DNA of 8,009 nt, taken from positions 1 through 8,009 of the forward strand of contig JABISU010000209.1 in the NCBI GenBank assembly GCA_018700255.1, read 5' to 3'. The notes below the pieces were generated by a model, which worked only from the letters and a program-made list of their open reading frames with translations, was not told the DNA's origin and ran no database searches. Source of the stretch: Flavobacteriales bacterium. Lineage in GTDB: Bacteria; Bacteroidota; Bacteroidia; Flavobacteriales; UA16. The translations under genes were made by a program, and so were the position numbers. Shown piece after piece: positions 1 to 8,009 of this stretch. How positions within the stretch are numbered: position 1 is the stretch's first letter; each line of letters opens with the position of its first letter.

Positions 1-260
1 CCATTGGGAGACATAGAGTTCCAAAATAATGTGTGATTATAAAATCCACCTCCGTTGTTTCTAACTGCTGCGTTATCCATATTATGCGCAAGAAGATCTT
101 CAATGCAAGAACCCTCAAGAGCTGTGCCAGCAACAGCGGCATTCAACTTAGCAGTGTAACCAGCGTGATGCTTCCCGTGATGGATTTCCATGGTTCGTGA
201 GTCGATATGAGGCTCGAGAGCGTTGTAAGCGTAAGGTAGATTAGGTAATTCAAAAGCCAT
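1..260 (-). CDS. sodA: Superoxide dismutase [Fe/Mn], N-terminal part (runs off left edge)
   Basis: The enzyme converts superoxide to oxygen and hydrogen peroxide, normally in the cytoplasm. The 86 visible codons begin [20 protein letters not shown], the classic opening of Fe/Mn superoxide dismutases. The helical hairpin follows with [10 protein letters not shown] (residues 26-35, H27 the first metal ligand) and FYNHTLFW (73-80, H76 the second ligand). The remaining ligands (the DxWEHAYY-type motif) lie outside the window, so metal preference cannot be judged. The ATG at 260-258 is the natural start for this family. It lies 14 bases after the stop of the upstream peptidase gene, so the two are probably co-transcribed. 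The start has only an A/T-rich sequence before it and no Shine-Dalgarno site. There are no breaks in the visible part. The family call is very secure; the symbol sodA rather than sodB is a convention here. Confidence 0.96.
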
Positions 261-274
261 TTTACACGAATTTA

Positions 275-1933
275 TTAGAGATTTAAAGAATGATTCGTAG
301 AATCGTTATAAAGCAAATATACTCCTCCATCTCGCACCTTGAACCTATCATTTTGTAACAATTCATAAAGGGCTCTAGCTGTGAAATCATCTCCATTAAT
401 TAGAATCTTATAATATGCGTTATCTCCATATAAATTCTTTACTACTTGCGCATAAAATCTGCTCATAATTCGCTCGATTTGTATCCTACCTTCCTCACTC
501 GATATTTTAGGCCAAACAGTTCCTTGGTCTTCTGCCACACTCTTTATCAATGCCATCCCTCCTGTCTGTGAGTCTATCCAATTATCTGAAGTCCTCGAAA
601 CCAACTCTCCTCTATGATCATCTACCCATTTAAATGCTGCATCTCTCAAAACTCCAGTCCAAACCAATTCAGCGAGTGCTCTATACCCGATCGTACTATC
701 GAGTGGGATAAATATATCGGGTGTAATGCCACCGCCGCCATATACTTCTCTCCCGAATAGAGTTCTATATACAACGCTATCCGTTTTTATAACGCTATCA
801 TTCAGGAAGAGCTCGCCCGATTGAAGCCTGTCTTCGTAATCGTGGTCATAATCAACACCCTCGCCGTATGGTTTTTGAATAGCTCGACCACTTGGGGTAT
901 AGAATCTGGCAACAGTAAGCCTTAGCGCACCAGAACCTTCGTTTGAATTAGGAACTTCAAACTCCTCCTGCACGAGTCCTTTCCCGAAAGACCGTCGCCC
1001 AACAATAAGGCCTCTATCATTATCCTGCATCGCCCCAGCGAAAATCTCACTGGCTGAAGCAGAACTTTCATCAATCAGCACTGCAATTGGCCAGTTTCGA
1101 TACTCGCCATCGTATTTCGATACGTAGTCGCGACGAGGCGAGGCTTTGCCCTCGGTGTATACAATTCCGAGCCCTTGATCTAAAAACCTATCGATCATAT
1201 CAGTTGCAGCACTCATATATCCGCCGCCGTTAGCTCTAAGATCGACAATCACAGAGGTGGCGCCATCTCGCTCTAAGTTGTGCATTGCCTCTGCAAACTC
1301 AGCGGCCGTTGTCGCAGAGAATCGAATGACCTTTATGTACCCGACATCCTCTTCGATAATAAACGAGGCAACTACACTGTGAATGGGGATTCTATCTCTT
1401 ACAATTTCTACATCATACTCCTCATTAGAGCTGCTATGTAGAAGACTTAAATCAACTTTCGTTCCTCGAGCACCCTTTAAAAGCTCCATTACCCTCTTGT
1501 TCGTGAGGTTCACACCAGAAATCTCCTCATCCCCAACTTTCACAATTCTATCTCCTGATCTTATTCCAGCGCTTTCAGAGGGGCCACCAGCTATCGCATT
1601 GACAACAATTAAAGTATCATTCTGAATAATAAACTCCACTCCTATGCCTTCAAAATTCCCCTCCATTGGTGCGGCCATTTCCTCCAACTCTGCTCGAGAG
1701 AAATAATATGTATGAGGATCGAGTTCATCTACAATTGCTTCTACAGCAACATCTACAAGGGTTTCACGATTTATGGAGTCAACATATAGAACTTCGATTT
1801 GGTCTAAAATGTGAGAAATACGAGACCCTACTCGCGAATTACTACTCAATGAGCCATCCTCACACCCCTTTCCTAACATCAAACCAAGCGCAAGGGTAAT
1901 CGCAATAACTAGAGGCTGTTTACTCTGTGACAT
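275..1933 (-). CDS. ctpA: S41-family carboxy-terminal processing peptidase (CtpA/Prc type) with PDZ domain
   Basis: This is a serine protease with a Ser-Lys dyad that trims or degrades envelope proteins from the C terminus. Numbered from the ATG (552 aa), residues 7-21 form a hydrophobic segment after a short basic start, giving a signal peptide or membrane anchor. Cys24 follows, but its preceding residues (GKG) do not form a good lipobox. A PDZ domain spans about 90-180 with the carboxylate-binding GIGVEF (96-101). The catalytic core contains VDLRANGGG (230-238) and [17 protein letters not shown]. Serine 293, Lys318 (SFGKGLVQ) and Gln322 have the family spacing (25, then 4). A tail of about 150 residues, typical of Bacteroidota members, ends the protein. 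A TTG at 1936 directly precedes the ATG; I chose the ATG. The start overlaps the end of the deaminase gene by 14 bases, implying translational coupling. The protein is predicted to act in the periplasm. Confidence 0.95.
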
Positions 1934-2354
1934 CAAGGAGTTCAGTTTTTATTAATGACTTGTCCAGGAAATCAATTCCGCTAGTGTCTTTGTAAGCTTT
2001 CTTATAAACGACTCTAGAAATGCCCGATTGTAAGATGAGTTTTGCGCAATCGCGGCAAGGGGAAAGTGTGATATATAGGGTAGCTCCTTCAGCAGAGTTG
2101 ATGCTTCGAGCTAATTTTGTGATGGCATTTGTCTCTGCGTGGAGAACATACCAATGAGTTTCTCCTTCAGCATTTTCACATTCATTTGGGAACCCGCTTG
2201 GAGAACCGTTATATCCGTCAGATATAATCATCCTGTCTTTCACAATAAGAGCACCAACGTTCTTACGAGTGCAGTGCGAAAGTTTAGCCCACTCCTCAGC
2301 CATTCTCATATAAGCATTGTCATAACGCCTTTGCTTTTTAATCGCTTCATTCAT
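1920..2354 (-). CDS. Deoxycytidylate (dCMP) deaminase, zinc-dependent (ComEB-like)
   Basis: This enzyme is predicted to deaminate dCMP to dUMP, feeding thymidylate synthesis in the cytoplasm. The 144-residue length is normal for bacterial dCMP deaminases. The zinc site is intact: HAE (H72, with E74 as proton shuttle) and PCRDC (C100 and C103). The segment SDGYNGSPSGFPNEC (45-59) is the substrate-proximal motif that separates dCMP deaminases from cytidine and tRNA-adenosine deaminases. The N-terminal W22 to I44 stretch with KNVGALIVKD fits the family. It is the first gene of a minus-strand group with the S41 peptidase, whose ATG lies inside its last codons, and sodA. The ATG at 2354 is 33 bases from the divergent adenosyltransferase start. 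I infer dCMP specificity from the motif; a broader CMP/dCMP activity is possible. Confidence 0.93.
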   Translation of the reverse strand: MNEAIKKQRRYDNAYMRMAEEWAKLSHCTRKNVGALIVKDRMIISDGYNGSPSGFPNECENAEGETHWYVLHAETNAITKLARSINSAEGATLYITLSPCRDCAKLILQSGISRVVYKKAYKDTSGIDFLDKSLIKTELLDVTE

Positions 2355-2375
2355 TAATGCGCAAGATAATCTACG

Positions 2376-2383
2376 TAGCTTCG
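2376..2383 (+). promoter_or_regulatory. Possible -7 promoter element of the adenosyltransferase gene
   Basis: TAGCTTCG matches the Bacteroidota -7 consensus TAnnTTTG with one mismatch and ends exactly four bases before the ATG at 2388. If used, transcription would begin at or next to the start codon (leaderless mRNA). No convincing TTTG -33 box is seen at the usual distance. The call is weak alone and gains support only from the identical arrangement before lysC and the rmlD-pgm gene. Confidence 0.3.
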
Positions 2384-2387
2384 TTTC

Positions 2388-2936
2388 ATGCGTATATATA
2401 CAAGAACAGGTGATGACGGGACAACAGGACTTTTTAATGGTACCCGTGTACCTAAAGACAGCCTTAGAATAGAGGCTTACGGAACTGTAGATGAGCTTAA
2501 TTCCTTTATTGGAAAACTAATTGAGCATAAAGCAATGCTTGAACACCGTGAGTTTTTCAGAGAAATTCAGGCTGAACTGTTCACACTCGGTTCTCATCTT
2601 GCGACAAAAGATTCAAAAATGCTAGAAAAGCTTCCAAAATTATCCAAGCATGCAGTAAAGAAGTTCGAAGATTGGATGGACGCTGCAGATGAAAAAGTTC
2701 CCTCATTAAAAAACTTCTTACTTCCAGGAGGTCATCCAGCAGTTGCGGATGCACACATCGCAAGAGCTGTTTGTCGTAGAGCGGAGCGCAGGTGTGTGGG
2801 ATTATCCAGAGAGGAAGAAGTAAATCCAGAGGTTATAAAATATCTAAATCGACTTTCAGATTTACTCTTCACAACCGCCAGATTATTATCATATTTAACA
2901 GAAACTGAAGAAATTGCATGGAAAACTTGCAACTAA
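2388..2936 (+). CDS. pduO: PduO-type cob(I)alamin adenosyltransferase
   Basis: The enzyme transfers the 5'-deoxyadenosyl group of ATP to cob(I)alamin, making adenosylcobalamin for enzymes such as methylmalonyl-CoA mutase. The 182-residue protein opens with the ATP-binding signature YTRTGDDGTTGLFNG (residues 4-18), followed by RIEAYGTVDELNSFIG (27-42, including D35). Later come FLLPGG (110-115), the helix ARAVCRRAERR (125-135), whose arginines and glutamate correspond to the active-site cluster of PduO/MMAB enzymes, and NRLSDLLF (154-161). It is a five-helix-bundle protein that normally works as a trimer in the cytoplasm. The length and all motifs are complete. No other B12 gene is in the window, so the dependent enzyme must be encoded elsewhere. 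The start ATG is only 33 bases from the divergent deaminase start. Confidence 0.95.
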   Translation: MRIYTRTGDDGTTGLFNGTRVPKDSLRIEAYGTVDELNSFIGKLIEHKAMLEHREFFREIQAELFTLGSHLATKDSKMLEKLPKLSKHAVKKFEDWMDAADEKVPSLKNFLLPGGHPAVADAHIARAVCRRAERRCVGLSREEEVNPEVIKYLNRLSDLLFTTARLLSYLTETEEIAWKTCN

Positions 2937-2956
2937 TCGAGATTCGGTTACTTTTG
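2926..2956 (+). promoter_or_regulatory. Probable promoter of the DUF2795 gene (-33 / -7 type)
   Basis: TACTTTTG at 2949-2956 is an exact match to the Bacteroidota -7 consensus TAnnTTTG. CTTG at 2926-2929, 19 bases upstream, is a one-mismatch match to the TTTG -33 box. Transcription would start near 2961, giving a leader of about 35-40 bases that contains the inverted repeat at 2969-2989. The -33 box overlaps the last codons of the adenosyltransferase gene, so DUF2795 may be expressed both from here and by read-through. Confidence 0.45.
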
Positions 2957-2968
2957 CGCGCTGTAAGC

Positions 2969-2989
2969 TTTGTGTAAACAAGACACAAA
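2969..2989 (+). repeat. Perfect 7-bp inverted repeat in the DUF2795 leader
   Basis: TTTGTGT (2969-2975) and ACACAAA (2983-2989) are perfect reverse complements separated by seven bases. The repeat sits between the predicted transcription start and the ATG at 2999, right against the purine-rich AGAAAGGA that precedes the start. It could be an RNA hairpin near the ribosome site or a DNA operator. It has no U-run and lies before a gene, so it does not look like a terminator of pduO. Confidence 0.45.
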
Positions 2990-2998
2990 TAGAAAGGA

Positions 2999-3220
2999 AT
3001 GTATTGGACACTTGAATTAGCCTCTTACTTAGAGGATGCACCATGGCCCGCTTCAAAAGACGAGCTAATTGACTTCGCTATGCGTACAGGAGCGCCGCTT
3101 GAAGTAGTAGAAAACCTTCAGGGGCTTCAAGATGATGGTGAAAACTATGATACTATTGAAGATATTTGGCCTGACTACCCTTCGAAAGAGGACTTCTTCT
3201 TCAACGAAGACGAATACTAA
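2999..3220 (+). CDS. DUF2795 small acidic protein
   Basis: This 73-residue protein starts MYWTLELASYLEDAPWPASK and ends PSKEDFFFNEDEY. I recognise it as the DUF2795 family (Pfam PF11387), which from memory is found across Bacteroidota with strong sequence conservation and no established function. It is very acidic: 20 Asp/Glu against 3 Lys/Arg. It has no signal peptide or membrane segment, so it should be cytoplasmic. The segment SKDELIDFAMRTGAPLEVVE (19-38) reads as two helices around a turn, a small helical domain, followed by an acidic tail rich in aromatic residues. The start ATG directly follows AGAAAGGA; the spacing is very short for a Shine-Dalgarno site. It lies 62 bases after pduO with its own likely promoter. 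Its TAA abuts the lysC stop codon on the other strand with no base between. Confidence 0.9.
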   Translation: MYWTLELASYLEDAPWPASKDELIDFAMRTGAPLEVVENLQGLQDDGENYDTIEDIWPDYPSKEDFFFNEDEY

Positions 3221-4486
3221 CTAAGCCAGGAGCCGCCTTACTGTAGATGGGCTTTTCTGTTCCATCAAGACTTCCCTTTTTGCTGTCAATCTTTCTACTA
3301 ACTCCTCTGAGCCATATCTCACTGTTAGTAACTCTAGACCTCTAGTAGCTTTAGACCAAACCTCTTCCCCCAGCTTCTCAATCAACTTTACCTCCTTGTC
3401 TTTGTTCGAATCAAAGATGATATCAAACTTTACAGCTGAATTCTGCATCATCCTTACATGAATGCCGGCATCATCTAAAGCGCTAAAGACTGAGGTAAGG
3501 TGATCTTCACCAACAAATGATTGATCGGAAGGACCGATTGATAACCGAGTGACATTGGGTCTATAGATATACATGGGAAATGAAGGAATCTGTCCAGGAA
3601 ACCGAGCAATCCTTGTTTGTTTAGCATTTAAGTCCATAAAACTCCTCACTATTAAAGGGATTCCTAAATTTTGAAGAGGCTTAACCGTCCTGGGGTGAAT
3701 CACACTAGCTCCGTAATAACTAAGCTCAATAGCTTCAGAGTAATCAAGTTCTTCCACCGTCTGAGTTCCTTCAAAAATTCGCGGGTCTGCGTTCAACATT
3801 CCTGGTACATCCTTCCAAATCACCACCTCCTCAGCCCCGACAGCACAAGCGAGCAAGGCGGCAGAATAGTCTGAACCTTCCCTACCTAGTGTCGTGGTCC
3901 TTCCACTGGGACTTTTCCCTATAAAACCCTGAGTTACTACTATTCTCCGAGACGACTCAGAAAGCAGACCTCTAAGGTTAAGTCCCATTTCATCTAATCT
4001 ACTCTCATCAACTCTAGCGCTATTGTGCCTTTCATCTGTTTCTATAATTCCCCTCACATCTTTCCACTCAACATCCCAACTATTAGAATATAAATAAGCA
4101 AATAAAATCTTTGTGCTTGCGTCTTCTCCCGATGCTACTAATTCGTCATAAGCTGCATCTAAATCATCGAGATGATTTGCTTTTTTTAGTGCTGTAATAA
4201 ATAGCTCATGCAGATCTAACTCTATTGATAAAGCATCTATAACCTGCTGATGTGCTACAACTATTTCGTTTAATTCTTCCAAGGCTTTATCAAAACCATC
4301 AGATACCAAAGTAGAAAAAACCTGTTCAAGTTTATTCGTAGTTTTGCCCATCGCAGAAACTACAACCACTGCTGGATAAACCAAACAGTTTTGCAAAATA
4401 GATTCCACATTTCTTACAGCATCGGCATCTTTTACAGATGCTCCACCAAATTTATGGACTGTTAGATTTTGTACTCGAAATTGCAC
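3221..4486 (-). CDS. lysC: Aspartate kinase, monofunctional
   Basis: The enzyme phosphorylates L-aspartate with ATP, the first step towards lysine (and diaminopimelate), threonine and methionine. Numbered on 421 residues, KFGGASV (12-18) is the ATP/aspartate-binding start motif. TTTLGREGSDYSAA (197-210) is the kinase signature, VVIWKDVPGMLNADPR (221-236) is the nucleotide-binding region, and ELSYYGASVIHPRTV (254-268) closes the catalytic domain. Residues from about 312 form a regulatory ACT region (SVFSALDDAGIHVRMMQNS), followed by a short segment ending EVLMEQKSPSTVRRLLA that resembles other Bacteroidota aspartokinases. No homoserine dehydrogenase domain follows, so it is monofunctional. The start is GTG at 4486. 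A stop lies four codons upstream in frame, and no other start precedes the essential KFGG motif. Feedback inhibition by lysine or threonine through the ACT region is likely, but the effector cannot be read from the sequence. Confidence 0.95.
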   Translation of the reverse strand: MQFRVQNLTVHKFGGASVKDADAVRNVESILQNCLVYPAVVVVSAMGKTTNKLEQVFSTLVSDGFDKALEELNEIVVAHQQVIDALSIELDLHELFITALKKANHLDDLDAAYDELVASGEDASTKILFAYLYSNSWDVEWKDVRGIIETDERHNSARVDESRLDEMGLNLRGLLSESSRRIVVTQGFIGKSPSGRTTTLGREGSDYSAALLACAVGAEEVVIWKDVPGMLNADPRIFEGTQTVEELDYSEAIELSYYGASVIHPRTVKPLQNLGIPLIVRSFMDLNAKQTRIARFPGQIPSFPMYIYRPNVTRLSIGPSDQSFVGEDHLTSVFSALDDAGIHVRMMQNSAVKFDIIFDSNKDKEVKLIEKLGEEVWSKATRGLELLTVRYGSEELVERLTAKREVLMEQKSPSTVRRLLA

Positions 4487-4490
4487 GCCA

Positions 4491-4498
4491 CTAAGTTA
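4491..4498 (-). promoter_or_regulatory. Possible -7 promoter element of lysC
   Basis: On the minus strand TAACTTAG (4498-4491) matches TAnnTTTG with one mismatch and ends four bases before the GTG start at 4486. It lies inside the 24-base gap shared with the divergent cvpA gene. No TTTG -33 box is evident. Its weight comes from having the same position relative to the start as the elements before pduO and rmlD-pgm. Confidence 0.25.
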
Positions 4499-4510
4499 CT
4501 ACATTGCAAT

Positions 4511-5104
4511 ATGGATTCATTACCATTACCTATCACAGATATCATTCTAATTGTCATTCTAATTTGGGGTGCAATTACCGGCTTTAAAAAAGGATTGGTT
4601 CTTACACTAGCTTCTTTTATAGCAATCATCGCCGGGGCATTGGCCGCCTATTATGGTGCAGATGCAATCGCATATGAAATAAGCTTAAACTTAGATTGGT
4701 CCGAGAAACAAATTGCTGTGGCTTCTTTTGCAATTGTCTTCTTAATCGTGGTTATAACTGTACACTTGCTTGCAAGAGTACTTGAACAAGCTCTCAAACT
4801 TGTTGCATTAGGTCTTGCAAATAAAATTGCTGGAGCTGTTTTCGGTATTGCAAAAAACGCTCTAATTCTGACATTTATAATATTTGGAATTAAGGGGTTT
4901 GGAAGAGGATTACTTCCCGAAAATGCAACAGATGAATGTGTCGTTTACCCCGTTGTGGAGTCTATAGCACCTCTTGTTTTACCCTACTGGGAGGACTTTT
5001 ATGAGACTACTGACCTTGAAATACTCGAAGAAAAAGTTAAGGAAAATATTGAAAAGACAAAAGATAAAATAGAGGATGTAAAGAATCATAAAAAAGCCAA
5101 CTAA
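4511..5104 (+). CDS. cvpA: CvpA-family inner-membrane protein
   Basis: The 197-residue protein has the CvpA (colicin V production) pattern. It begins DSLPLPITDIILIVILIWGA, followed by the family motif GFKKGLV (24-30). About four membrane helices lie at roughly 9-27, 30-48, 68-88 and 105-127. A short loop region (about 130-165) and a charged, probably coiled-coil tail (about 167-195, rich in E and K, e.g. EEKVKENIEKTKDKIEDV) end the protein. CvpA proteins are widespread and linked to envelope integrity in other bacteria, but their biochemical role is not settled. I chose the ATG at 4511; a longer reading from a TTG at 4469 would overlap lysC and add non-family residues. The gene is divergent from lysC across 24 bases and ends 10 bases from the stop of the convergent rmlD-pgm gene. 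Confidence 0.9.
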   Translation: MDSLPLPITDIILIVILIWGAITGFKKGLVLTLASFIAIIAGALAAYYGADAIAYEISLNLDWSEKQIAVASFAIVFLIVVITVHLLARVLEQALKLVALGLANKIAGAVFGIAKNALILTFIIFGIKGFGRGLLPENATDECVVYPVVESIAPLVLPYWEDFYETTDLEILEEKVKENIEKTKDKIEDVKNHKKAN

Positions 5105-5114
5105 TAGAAGAAAA

Positions 5115-7712
5115 CTAAACTGCTCCAAAGGCTTTAAATAGATCTTTTACTCTGGTTTTTAATTCGGCTTGGGCCTTTGAGTAATCATCCCCAGCCTGTA
5201 TATTTCCTTTCACACTAACGTAAAATTTAATCTTTGGCTCTGTGCCTGAGGGCCTTACCGTCACTATAGAACCGTTTTCAGTTACAAACTGTAGAACATT
5301 AGATTTAGGAAGGTTGTATTTCGTCCCGTCAGGACTTGCAAAATCATAAAACTCAACAACTTTATTTCCAGCTAAGCTTTCGGGGGGATTCGTTCTAAAT
5401 GAAGTGATCATATCTGCAATCTCTTTCGATCCGTTCCTTCCGCTTTTCACGATTGAAATAAGCCCTTCTTGGTATAGTCCAAACTTTCTGTGAATCTCCT
5501 CCAATCTTTCAAGCATCGTCGTGCCCTGCTCTTTTAGTGTGTGAGCAAGCTCCGATATGACACAACATGCTGACACCGCATCTTTGTCTCGTGCAGTATT
5601 TTTTATGAGATATCCATAGCTTTCTTCAGCGCCTACGACGAAGTCCCTGCTACCCTTCTCTTGAGCTATTGCCGCTGCTATGTGTTTAAATCCAGTTAAA
5701 GTTGTCCTAACTCCCAAACCATAGCCTTTTCCAATCTCTCCTAGAAGTGGAGAAGTAACTATCGTTGACGCAACAAATTCCGAAGAGCCAAATGGGGTGC
5801 CGTTGTCTCTACCACAGCTAAGGACATAGTCGAAAAGAAGCGCTCCTGTTTCATTTCCGTTTAGAAGTTGAAACCCACCTTCCCCATTTGGGACAGCTAA
5901 ACCAACTCTATCTGCATCTGGATCAGTGCCCATTATAAGCGAAGCGTTAACCTGCTCACCTAAAAGGATTGCTTCTGCTAATGCTTGGCCTTCCTCAGGG
6001 TTGGGGCTAGAAACTGTAGGGAAATTTCCATTTGGCTCTTTTTGAGACATGACTTCATGGACGTTAGAAAAACCAAACGCCTTTAATGCAGGTGGAACGC
6101 TTACCGATCCTGTTCCATGTAGACCCGTAAAAACCAAGCACAAGTCAGAGCCCTTTTCCTCAATATCTTTAGAACTCCTTAATTCCAGAACAGCATTTAT
6201 ATAACCCTCGTCTAATTCAGGTCCTAGAATTGTAATTAGATTGTTTGAATCTAGAGGACCAGAAGAACTATTAACCTCCAATAGAGATTTTACTTTTCTC
6301 ACTTCTGAAATAATGCCTGAATCATGGGGAGCCACTATTTGGCCTCCATCATCCCAATAAACCTTATATCCATTGTATTCTGGAGGATTGTGAGATGCAG
6401 TTATGACAATTCCTGCAACACATCCTAAAGCGCGAACCGTATAAGAAAGTTGAGGGGTAGGTCTGAGTGCGGGGTACAGCAAAGCTTGAATACCATTTCC
6501 AGCTAAAACCCGTGCCGTTACTTCGGCAAATTCTGTGCTTTGATTGCGACAATCGTATGCAATAGCCACTTTAAGCTGCTCACCACTCTCGCCTTTCACG
6601 CCCTTGATGTAATTCACCAACCCTTGAGTCGCGCTGGCAATTATAGCTTCATTTATCCTGTTCGTCCCAGGCCCACATATACCCCTCATTCCCCCAGTTC
6701 CGAATTCTATATCCGTGTGAAATGCCTCCATAAGCATATCCTCCTCCTCATTTTTCAACCATTCCTTAACAACTTCTCTAGTTTTTAAATCGTATGGCTC
6801 TTTAGTCCAAACCTCCGCCCTCTCTTTAACTCTTAAATATTCACTGTTTATACACATTTCTAATGCTTTTTTCCAAGTTCTTTTAGTCAAGTTCAACAAC
6901 TCCCTAAGTGGCGCTCCGTCGAGATGAGAATTGGCGGGGCGCACTGCTTTAGTTGGGTATTCCGCTGTGGTAATACCCTCAACATCAACATCCATTTTAA
7001 GCTGCACAAATATCTCACGGGCAAAAGAAGCCCAACAAGTAACACCTTCATCACTAAAATGTAAAATACCATTTGGAACTTTTTCGCCGATGATGAGTAA
7101 TGATCTAATAGCCTCAGACAAAGACCCTACATAGGTCGGGGTACCTCTTTGGTCGAAAACAACTCTAATACTACTTCTTTCGGAGCCTAACCTTGTCATT
7201 GTGGTGAAAAAATTTGAACCCTTGTTGTCATAAAGCCAGCTAGTCCTCAAAATATGATATCGACCACTTTCAGACATCGCCTCTTCAACTGCACGCTCTC
7301 CAGCTTCTTTAGATTTACCATAGACTCCGATAGGGTTCACTTCATCATCCGCCCTATAAGGCCTCTCTTTAGTTCCACCATTCTCACCATTAAAAACGTA
7401 ATCAGTGCTAATGTGAACAAGGGCTACACTTCTATCGTTACAAGCTTTTGCAATAAGCGAGGGGGCTTCAGCGTTTACTTCCCATGCCAATTGCTTTTCC
7501 GTTTCCGCTCTATCTACGTTAGTATAAGCAGCAGTATTTACTACAGCAAAAGGTTTTTCTTTGTCTAGTATATCTTCTAATTGAGAACGGTTTTTGATAT
7601 CCAGTTGTTCTCTAGAATATCCCACCCAAGAAATATCATTGTCAGTAGCATATCTACGTAATAGGAAACTCCCTAATTGTCCTCCGGCCCCTAATAACAA
7701 TACTTTTTTCAC
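5115..7712 (-). CDS. rfbD-pgm: Fusion: dTDP-4-dehydrorhamnose reductase (RmlD) + phosphoglucomutase/phosphomannomutase
   Basis: One uninterrupted 865-residue frame carries two complete enzymes. Residues 1-288 are RmlD/RfbD, which reduces dTDP-4-dehydro-L-rhamnose to dTDP-L-rhamnose. They contain the nucleotide loop GAGGQLG (8-14), STDYVFNG (102-109), the YxxxK pair Y131/K135, RTSWLY (156-161), RPANSHLD (258-265) and the family-type ending TWKKALEMCI. From about 289 to 865 is an alpha-D-phosphohexomutase. It contains FGTGGMRG (337-344), the phosphoserine loop TASHNP (S440), the metal loop DPDADR (597-602), the sugar loop GAEESYGY (694-701) and the phosphate site RPSGTEPK (820-827). It most likely interconverts glucose-6-phosphate and glucose-1-phosphate; a phosphomannomutase is possible. 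Both halves have normal length and all visible key residues, with no linker. The start is GTG at 7712, the only start placed before the nucleotide loop. An in-frame ATG at 6857-6855 (M286) could initiate the mutase alone. RmlA, B and C are not in the window. Confidence 0.9.
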   Translation of the reverse strand: MKKVLLLGAGGQLGSFLLRRYATDNDISWVGYSREQLDIKNRSQLEDILDKEKPFAVVNTAAYTNVDRAETEKQLAWEVNAEAPSLIAKACNDRSVALVHISTDYVFNGENGGTKERPYRADDEVNPIGVYGKSKEAGERAVEEAMSESGRYHILRTSWLYDNKGSNFFTTMTRLGSERSSIRVVFDQRGTPTYVGSLSEAIRSLLIIGEKVPNGILHFSDEGVTCWASFAREIFVQLKMDVDVEGITTAEYPTKAVRPANSHLDGAPLRELLNLTKRTWKKALEMCINSEYLRVKERAEVWTKEPYDLKTREVVKEWLKNEEEDMLMEAFHTDIEFGTGGMRGICGPGTNRINEAIIASATQGLVNYIKGVKGESGEQLKVAIAYDCRNQSTEFAEVTARVLAGNGIQALLYPALRPTPQLSYTVRALGCVAGIVITASHNPPEYNGYKVYWDDGGQIVAPHDSGIISEVRKVKSLLEVNSSSGPLDSNNLITILGPELDEGYINAVLELRSSKDIEEKGSDLCLVFTGLHGTGSVSVPPALKAFGFSNVHEVMSQKEPNGNFPTVSSPNPEEGQALAEAILLGEQVNASLIMGTDPDADRVGLAVPNGEGGFQLLNGNETGALLFDYVLSCGRDNGTPFGSSEFVASTIVTSPLLGEIGKGYGLGVRTTLTGFKHIAAAIAQEKGSRDFVVGAEESYGYLIKNTARDKDAVSACCVISELAHTLKEQGTTMLERLEEIHRKFGLYQEGLISIVKSGRNGSKEIADMITSFRTNPPESLAGNKVVEFYDFASPDGTKYNLPKSNVLQFVTENGSIVTVRPSGTEPKIKFYVSVKGNIQAGDDYSKAQAELKTRVKDLFKAFGAV
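6855..6872 (-). other. RmlD/PGM junction: A6 run and in-frame internal ATG
   Basis: On the minus strand the junction reads TGG-AAA-AAA-GCA-TTA-GAA-ATG. The six-A run is at 6872-6867 and the ATG (M286) at 6857-6855. As given, the frame is continuous. With one A fewer, the RmlD frame would reach a TAG at once, and that ATG would lie two bases after the stop, producing a normal two-gene arrangement. The site is therefore where a sequencing indel, transcript slippage or internal initiation could separate the two enzymes. Confidence 0.6.
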
Positions 7713-7716
7713 GTTA

Positions 7717-7724
7717 CGAAACTA
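7717..7724 (-). promoter_or_regulatory. Possible -7 promoter element of rmlD-pgm
   Basis: On the minus strand TAGTTTCG (7724-7717) matches TAnnTTTG with one mismatch and ends four bases before the GTG at 7712. This would make the mRNA leaderless or nearly so. A TTTG occurs at 7731-7728 but is much too close to serve as a -33 box. The call is weak alone; the same spacing is found before pduO and lysC. Confidence 0.3.
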
Positions 7725-7755
7725 CAACAAACACTACCTTCGCTTTAATTCATCT

Positions 7756-8009
7756 ATGAAAAAGCTTCTCTTTATCAATTTCTGCTTGCTTGCTTTGACT
7801 TGCAAGGCTGATATTGTAACTGATTCCCTATATAAAAACCCCTCAGTTATTAATCCCTTTTTGAAAGATAAGGATAACAGTGTCGAATTAAAACGAGTTA
7901 CCAGAGTCTTCACTATAGCTACTTTCAGCAACGAAATTGGTTGGGCTTCTTTTATGGACGATCCCCATAAAGGATTCGAAATCAATTACACGAAGCAGAA
8001 GATGAGCCG
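7756..8009 (+). CDS. Exported protein of unknown function, N-terminal part (runs off right edge)
   Basis: From the ATG at 7756 the frame is open to the window end, 84 complete codons plus two bases. The product begins MKKLLFINFCLLALTCKADI: a basic start, a hydrophobic core and a polar boundary, a convincing signal peptide. Cleavage could follow CKA (residue 19). Cys16 in LALTC is a poor lipobox because Thr precedes the Cys, so a lipoprotein is less likely but not excluded. The mature part seen (DIVTDSLYKNPSVINPF, then RVTRVFTIATFSNEIGWASF) shows no domain I recognise. The gene is divergent from rmlD-pgm across 43 bases. TACCTTCG at 7735-7742 is a one-mismatch -7-like element 13 bases before the ATG. 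An opposite-strand ORF over the same bases starts with TTG and lacks any recognisable feature, so I prefer this frame. Confidence 0.7.
   Translation, partial: MKKLLFINFCLLALTCKADIVTDSLYKNPSVINPFLKDKDNSVELKRVTRVFTIATFSNEIGWASFMDDPHKGFEINYTKQKMS

Follow-up and report, generated by a model that had tools for sequence, protein, structure and literature searches.

The window analysed here, a stretch of 8,009 nucleotides from a Flavobacteriales bacterium (assembly GCA_018700255.1, contig JABISU010000209.1, positions 1 to 8,009), raises the question of why an enzyme completing dTDP-L-rhamnose should share one chain with an enzyme predicted to act before this pathway begins. Phosphoglucomutase supplies glucose-1-phosphate to RmlA; RmlB, RmlC and RmlD act next. 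On the minus strand of the window, an rmlD-pgm fusion gene (5115..7712) runs as one open frame of 865 codons from a GTG start to a TAG stop (5115-5117), and no internal stops are present. When the window was shuffled 100 times by mononucleotides, no stop-free run exceeded 175 codons; chance is therefore no explanation for this frame. The initial annotation had described two complete enzymes in one 865-codon frame, and Pfam and NCBIfam domains, in a frame at exactly 5115..7712, bear this out. The fusion is confirmed as real: a single 865-residue protein consists of a complete RmlD joined to a complete phosphohexomutase.

One protein with an RmlD half and a phosphohexomutase half

The RmlD half (dTDP-4-dehydrorhamnose reductase) covers residues 1-290 (6843..7712, minus strand, like all other parts of the gene) and is recognized by TIGR01214, PF04321, PDB relatives and Foldseek. 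The NCBIfam rmlD model TIGR01214 matches residues 3-289 with 282.9 bits, well over its cut-off of 224.05, and it gives 269.4 bits for L136, the other Flavobacteriales fusion considered below. RmlD_sub_bind (PF04321) lies at residues 3-290 with 295 bits, above the Pfam gathering score. The PDB sequence relatives of this half are the RmlD chains 3sc6, 1vl0 and 1kbz, and Foldseek returned target-normalised template modelling (TM) scores of 0.92-0.95 to the 3sc6 and 1vl0 chains. The GxxGQxG loop, STDYVF and YxxxK are all found in the window protein. The nucleotide-binding loop GAGGQLG (residues 8-14, 7671..7691) keeps G8, G11 and Q12 in 40 of 42 aligned fused rows, the remaining two having gaps there. 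In STDYVF (residues 102-107, 7392..7409), T103, the catalytic threonine of the family, occurs in 41 of the 42 rows and is replaced by serine in one; the catalytic Tyr and Lys of YGKSK (residues 131-135, 7308..7322), Y131 and K135, are present in all. By curated cut-off and motifs, the N-terminal half is an RmlD with predicted reductase activity; no RmlC domain was found in the fusion protein by NCBIfam or Pfam search. Fold, motifs and family score are common to this half and to stand-alone RmlD (TIGR01214; 3sc6, 1vl0, 1kbz), but the latter terminates where the fusion protein runs on into the mutase.

The second half, residues 291-865 (5118..6842), belongs to the phosphoglucomutase/phosphomannomutase superfamily, as indicated by four Pfam domains and Foldseek. 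PF02878, PF02879, PF02880 and PF00408 (PGM_PMM domains I-IV) are located between residues 335 and 832, all above their gathering scores; these four domains, together with the presence of all four catalytic loops, place the half in the alpha-D-phosphohexomutase superfamily. The phosphoserine loop TASHNP (residues 438-443, 6384..6401) and the phosphate-binding loop RPSGTEPK (residues 820-827, 5232..5255) are identical in all 42 fused rows. The metal-binding loop DPDADR (residues 597-602, 5907..5924) retains D597, D599, D601 and R602 in every row, and so does the sugar-binding loop GAEESYG (residues 694-700, 5613..5633) its G-x-E-E-S. Phosphoglucomutases and phosphomannomutases are the PDB sequence relatives, and the best Foldseek match is the phosphoglucomutase 9du5. 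Stand-alone Bacteroidota proteins named 'phospho-sugar mutase' or phosphoglucomutase (P0039-P0120 except P0044; 559-606 amino acids) have the same mutase domains, domain IV not always being called, and share 47-57% identity with the stretch of the window protein that they match. They have their own start codon and no RmlD in front; in 44 loci such a mutase is a separate gene after rmlD.

At the junction (residues 280-302, 6807..6875), the C-terminal helix of RmlD is predicted to continue as a single helix into the N-terminal helix of the mutase. The closing pattern TWKKALEMCI, by which the initial annotation had recognized the end of RmlD, is located at residues 279-288, and the mutase N-terminal helix follows directly. 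The AlphaFold2 model of the window protein (63-row alignment; mean predicted local distance difference test score, pLDDT, of 91.4; predicted TM-score, pTM, of 0.76) has one helix at 280-301, in a block with a pLDDT of 88-93. The model of the L136 fusion (51 rows, mean pLDDT 91.3, pTM 0.83) has one at 281-303. An unbroken helix is hence predicted across the junction in both Flavobacteriales fusions, though the alignments have many rows in common and the two models are not wholly independent of each other. In the clade that contains the window, the flanking tryptophans have a spacing of 22 (17 rows) or 24 (15 rows), with zero indels in the W280-W302 interval within each of these two subclades; the remaining 10 fused rows have spacings of 16, 23, 25, 32 or 35. 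Selection is purifying over the two halves and over the junction: when the window was compared with L091, L092 and L001, the ratio of nonsynonymous to synonymous substitution rates (dN/dS) was 0.12-0.14 in RmlD, 0.07-0.08 in the mutase and 0.10-0.17 across the junction.

Distribution and origin of the fused form

The domain pair recurs in relatives, as a search for it in related genomes was meant to reveal: among the 120 homologues listed by the protein search (7,999 scored), 39 carry both RmlD and mutase domains in one protein, and 31 of these 39 are 56-94% identical to the query over 97-100% of its length. The database names seen for fused proteins mention one half only ('dTDP-4-dehydrorhamnose reductase' for P0015, 'phosphoglucomutase' for P0005). 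Among 80 genome loci, rmlD was detected by tblastn in 12, one of which is fused (L001, Flavobacteriales bacterium UBA2619, 83%). A sample of 399 Flavobacteriales genomes contained 398 with some match and 14 with a near full-length, single-frame and stop-free match; the fusion is carried by a group of uncultured members of this order. Additional to these 14 is the fusion of G242 (L140), split by contig ends, of which the first piece is open across the junction; G294 has a partial mutase only, 99% identical to the window. Open-frame lengths suggested further fusions in G076, G054 and G136, but reading of the DNA showed separate genes, and they were counted as adjacent.

Without duplicate fetches, the loci read comprise 15 complete fusions, the window among them, and 44 separate adjacent pairs, numbers whose ratio is no frequency, as the rows were taken partly from the best matches to the fused protein. 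In all 44, rmlD comes first and lies on the same strand as pgm, and in unfused relatives the two neighbours are often a few tens of bases apart. The possibility raised in the initial annotation, that close relatives all have two separate adjacent genes, does not hold: those with a readable junction are fused, and only more distant ones are split.

The tree of the mutase half comprises 99 rows (41 fused, 44 adjacent and 14 of the 68 loci in which rmlD was not found) and leaves out 13 near-duplicate fused proteins. A single clade with a Shimodaira-Hasegawa-like approximate likelihood ratio test (SH-aLRT) support of 100 unites 33 fused rows including the window, some of them one gene counted twice, as protein and as locus (four identical pairs); its sister is a group of six adjacent-gene rows. 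Two other fused Flavobacteriales rows, L135 and L136, are placed beside five adjacent rows, and six more fused rows are found among Bacteroidales and related rows. The fused/separate label needs three changes on this tree, and still three if only the starred branches are trusted. The RmlD tree, with 84 rows and the truncated L005 left out as well, again unites the 33 rows in a clade (96) and again sets L135 and L136 apart, with a different sister of the 33; it needs five changes, three of them forced by starred branches. In both trees, this second fused pair of the Flavobacteriales is thus placed outside the window clade. On joined alignments of 52 hand-chosen rows, uniting the 21 Flavobacteriales fused rows costs 146 log-likelihood units (approximately unbiased test, p = 1.5e-5, a value weakened by the fact that the group was defined after the first trees had been inspected).

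Non-monophyly alone is also compatible with one old fusion followed by losses, and the changes counted on the trees could include such losses. Separate gains are nevertheless preferred over a single gain with losses, because the mutase tree asks for two gains within the Flavobacteriales versus one gain and about three losses, and because splitting would require a new stop and a new start. By the trees, the fusion appears to have arisen at least twice within one order. In G094, the fusion comes after rod-shape genes, purH and a permease, in the gene order also seen in the window clade; both lineages therefore likely fused the pair in place. The stop and the spacer between neighbouring rmlD and pgm would have been lost separately and in place, by which the RmlD C-terminal helix would have run into the N-terminal helix of the mutase. 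Some of the single Bacteroidales fusions may be young or artefactual; P0032 and P0034 were not counted as firm origins.

Rhamnose-pathway context and proposed function

The most probable reading is that of a bifunctional enzyme, one half of which likely makes glucose-1-phosphate and the other of which is predicted to complete dTDP-L-rhamnose. The benefit would consist in supplying the feeder of RmlA and the finishing enzyme of the pathway at a fixed 1:1 ratio and in one place. The pathway link, already put forward in the initial annotation, agrees with the order of the genes in unfused relatives; a matching of hexose-phosphate flux to rhamnose output, suggested there too, would go beyond this evidence. 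In L007, rmlA-rmlC-rmlD-pgm stand in a row behind a short-chain dehydrogenase/reductase (SDR) gene, with rmlA and rmlC above cut-offs; L003 has SDR-rmlC-rmlD-pgm, with rmlC above cut-off; and L002 has rmlC-rmlD-pgm, its rmlC, cut by the contig start, being found by tblastn only. These are three of the 11 separate loci among the 80, and no rmlC was seen beside rmlD-pgm in the fetched DNA of the other eight. A second rhamnose link was observed in L048 and L069 (Flavobacteriales), where the same type of mutase adjoins rmlA and rmlB and no rmlD was found nearby.

The 14 fused genomes have one fusion each, and a second RmlD or a second mutase of this type was not found in them. Thirteen have one further superfamily member, which is GlmM (TIGR03990 above cut-off) in all four scanned of the 13. 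A search of the kind proposed in the initial annotation, made in these 14 genomes, returned the other pathway genes separately: rmlA above cut-off in 13 of them (a contig end truncates the fourteenth copy), rmlB in all 14 and rmlC in 10. GalU and GlgC are above cut-off in none of the 14, while five and seven of 14 control genomes pass. In the set of families searched, glucose-1-phosphate has no clearly identified user other than RmlA. The fusion hence likely ties the main glucose-1-phosphate supply of the cell to dTDP-L-rhamnose.

Several observations weigh against this reading. The mutase half is below every curated substrate-specific cut-off of NCBIfam, those of the phosphoglucomutase equivalogs (TIGR01132, 61.7 vs. 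778.05; NF046027, 47.3 vs. 600; NF005737, 30.2 vs. 378) as well as those of GlmM (TIGR01455, 61.9 vs. 447.55; TIGR03990, 143.2 vs. 439). Its substrate is inferred, and 'phosphoglucomutase' is therefore a family-level name. In 68 of the 80 loci, the flanks that were fetched, some of them truncated at contig ends, yielded no rmlD, and rmlC was not found in four of the 14 fused genomes, whose assemblies are perhaps incomplete. The search with PF01704, the other UDP-glucose pyrophosphorylase family, gave no signal even in controls and is uninformative. Furthermore, a nucleotidyltransferase of 339 amino acids with an unassigned sugar is present in fused genomes. The rml genes do not form a cluster with the fusion: rmlB (14/14) and rmlC (all 10 found) are on other contigs, and in all eight of the 14 fused genomes where rmlA and the fusion share a contig, rmlA is 13.6-18.0 kb upstream of it and on its strand, with unrelated genes in between. 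Finally, the junction spacing is not constant among fused lineages.

Given these intervening genes, the rmlA linkage was rejected as an rml cluster and taken as conserved gene order. In L167, L171, L174, L179, L185 and L186, the region upstream of the fusion is a block of rmlA, polyprenyl synthetase, 2-oxoglutarate dehydrogenase E1/E2, rodA, a penicillin-binding protein gene, mreC, mreB, purH and a MacB-like permease, the families having been scanned in L167 only and the five other regions matched by BLAST. The 339-residue nucleotidyltransferase (L168:1320-2336) passes no curated NCBIfam cut-off and has weak C-terminal hexapeptide/left-handed-helix matches; its N-terminus recurs in L172 and L176.

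The main rival is a neutral fusion, in which a stop was lost between packed neighbours and the halves work as before, with no selective coupling. It would fit the short distances between the adjacent genes of relatives, the gene only 10 bases behind the fusion, the small size of the fused genomes (1.4-2.5 Mb) and the variable spacing of the junction. However, the 18 genomes behind L102-L119, with unfused adjacent genes, are similar in size (1.9-2.5 Mb), and at least three fused/separate changes are needed per tree even with starred branches only, always with RmlD first. Moreover, the W280-W302 interval is free of indels within each subclade, and split copies were not observed within the clade of 33 rows, although the fused protein had served as the query that found them. 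A fusion devoid of selective value is, on this balance, possible but rather unlikely. A similarly modest chance is given to the mutase half being a general sugar-phosphate mutase (for glucose, mannose or pentose) that serves several pathways, its attachment to RmlD then being little informative. The lack of any other such mutase among those found in the 14 genomes means that other pathways may need that of the fusion, and the unmet cut-offs and the unassigned nucleotidyltransferase point the same way. Opposed to this are the rmlC-rmlD-pgm order of unfused relatives, once with rmlA in front, the failure of GalU and GlgC to pass their cut-offs in any of the 14 genomes, and the G-x-E-E-S loop of all 42 rows, the phosphoglucomutase form by a rule that lacks enough specificity.

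Within the bifunctional reading, the two active sites are not expected to channel substrate directly, since the steps of RmlA, RmlB and RmlC separate them and the spacing shifts by two residues inside the clade. A stronger form of coupling would make the protein a governor of flux: the state of RmlD (binding of NADPH or product) would set the entry of carbon at the mutase through the rigid shared helix, in a protein that evolved repeatedly and holds the only such mutase of the cell. Two extra residues rotate a helix by about 200 degrees, so with spacings of 22 and 24 the domains need not hold one mutual orientation; given this difference between subclades, a precise geometric coupling of the halves looks unlikely. 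The governor is regarded as improbable. Even less weight is attached to a second product, a separate mutase translated from an internal start near M286. In 10 of 13 window-clade loci, codon 286 or its counterpart is an in-frame ATG; yet M286 is inside the closing helix of RmlD, L099 and L100 instead have a Met about three residues further on, L101 is without ATG, GTG or TTG within the examined stretch, and purifying selection acts on the codons that span the junction, so that an internal start is unlikely as a conserved feature. That a sequencing or assembly artefact erased a stop or frame break is practically excluded and was rejected for the window clade: independent assemblies show the fusion, which is stop-free in 14 separate genomes and recurs in 31 protein clusters that share 56-94% identity with the window protein, and the junction dN/dS is below 0.2. 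Lone Bacteroidales fusions such as P0034, whose nearest relatives are unfused mutases of 80-89% identity, could be artefacts.

Neighbouring genes, related systems and significance

Downstream of the fusion, a CvpA/Colicin V production protein gene (PF02674; 4511-5104, plus strand, in a frame listed from 4469) converges on it and ends 10 bases from its stop. In G094, the open reading frame just behind the fusion, on the opposite strand, encodes a putative product that starts much like CvpA. Elsewhere in the window, a 73-residue DUF2795 protein (PF11387; 2999-3217, plus strand) is encoded between the genes of a cobalamin adenosyltransferase and an amino acid kinase (aspartate-kinase-like), and on the minus strand, at 1920-1936, the frame of an S41 peptidase (TTG start) and the upstream dCMP deaminase gene overlap by at most 17 bases.

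The pairing was not known to the initial annotation as a described architecture, and no description of an RmlD-phosphoglucomutase fusion was found in the open-access literature, which was judged mostly by titles and the starts of abstracts and is not proof of absence. It is a new domain pairing made of two known families. PurH (AICARFT/IMPCHase), whose family has a gene close to the fusion in L167, is a classic bifunctional enzyme with two consecutive activities; like the fusion, it carries two pathway enzymes in one chain. The closest known system comes from Prymnesium parvum and other haptophytes, whose RmlC-RmlD fusion is reported to have been active when purified and to have made TDP-rhamnose together with RmlB (PMC6556577). 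There, RmlD likewise shares its chain with another enzyme that acts in making dTDP-L-rhamnose, but the steps linked are consecutive and the hosts are algae. The window fusion, in contrast, is bacterial, has RmlD at its N-terminus and has a partner that precedes RmlA, so that first and last steps are linked.

Effects of overexpressing single genes have been reported for Sphingomonas sphingan producers. In strain WG, pgm overexpression left the gum yield unraised, yet it is listed as raising rhamnose content, and rmlA overexpression raised the yield by 13% at 84 h; rmlA-D are listed among the genes that lower rhamnose content (PMC9197254). These effects are mixed, and no support is taken from them either way.

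In the RmlD-mutase fusion, the partners flank the steps of RmlA, RmlB and RmlC, whereas many known gene fusions link consecutive steps. Its two or more apparent origins in one order suggest that linking glucose-1-phosphate supply to the completion of rhamnose can be favoured. The stand-alone mutase encoded beside rmlD in other Bacteroidota is accordingly predicted to serve dTDP-rhamnose, and the natural fused and split orthologues are suited to testing directly why enzymes fuse.

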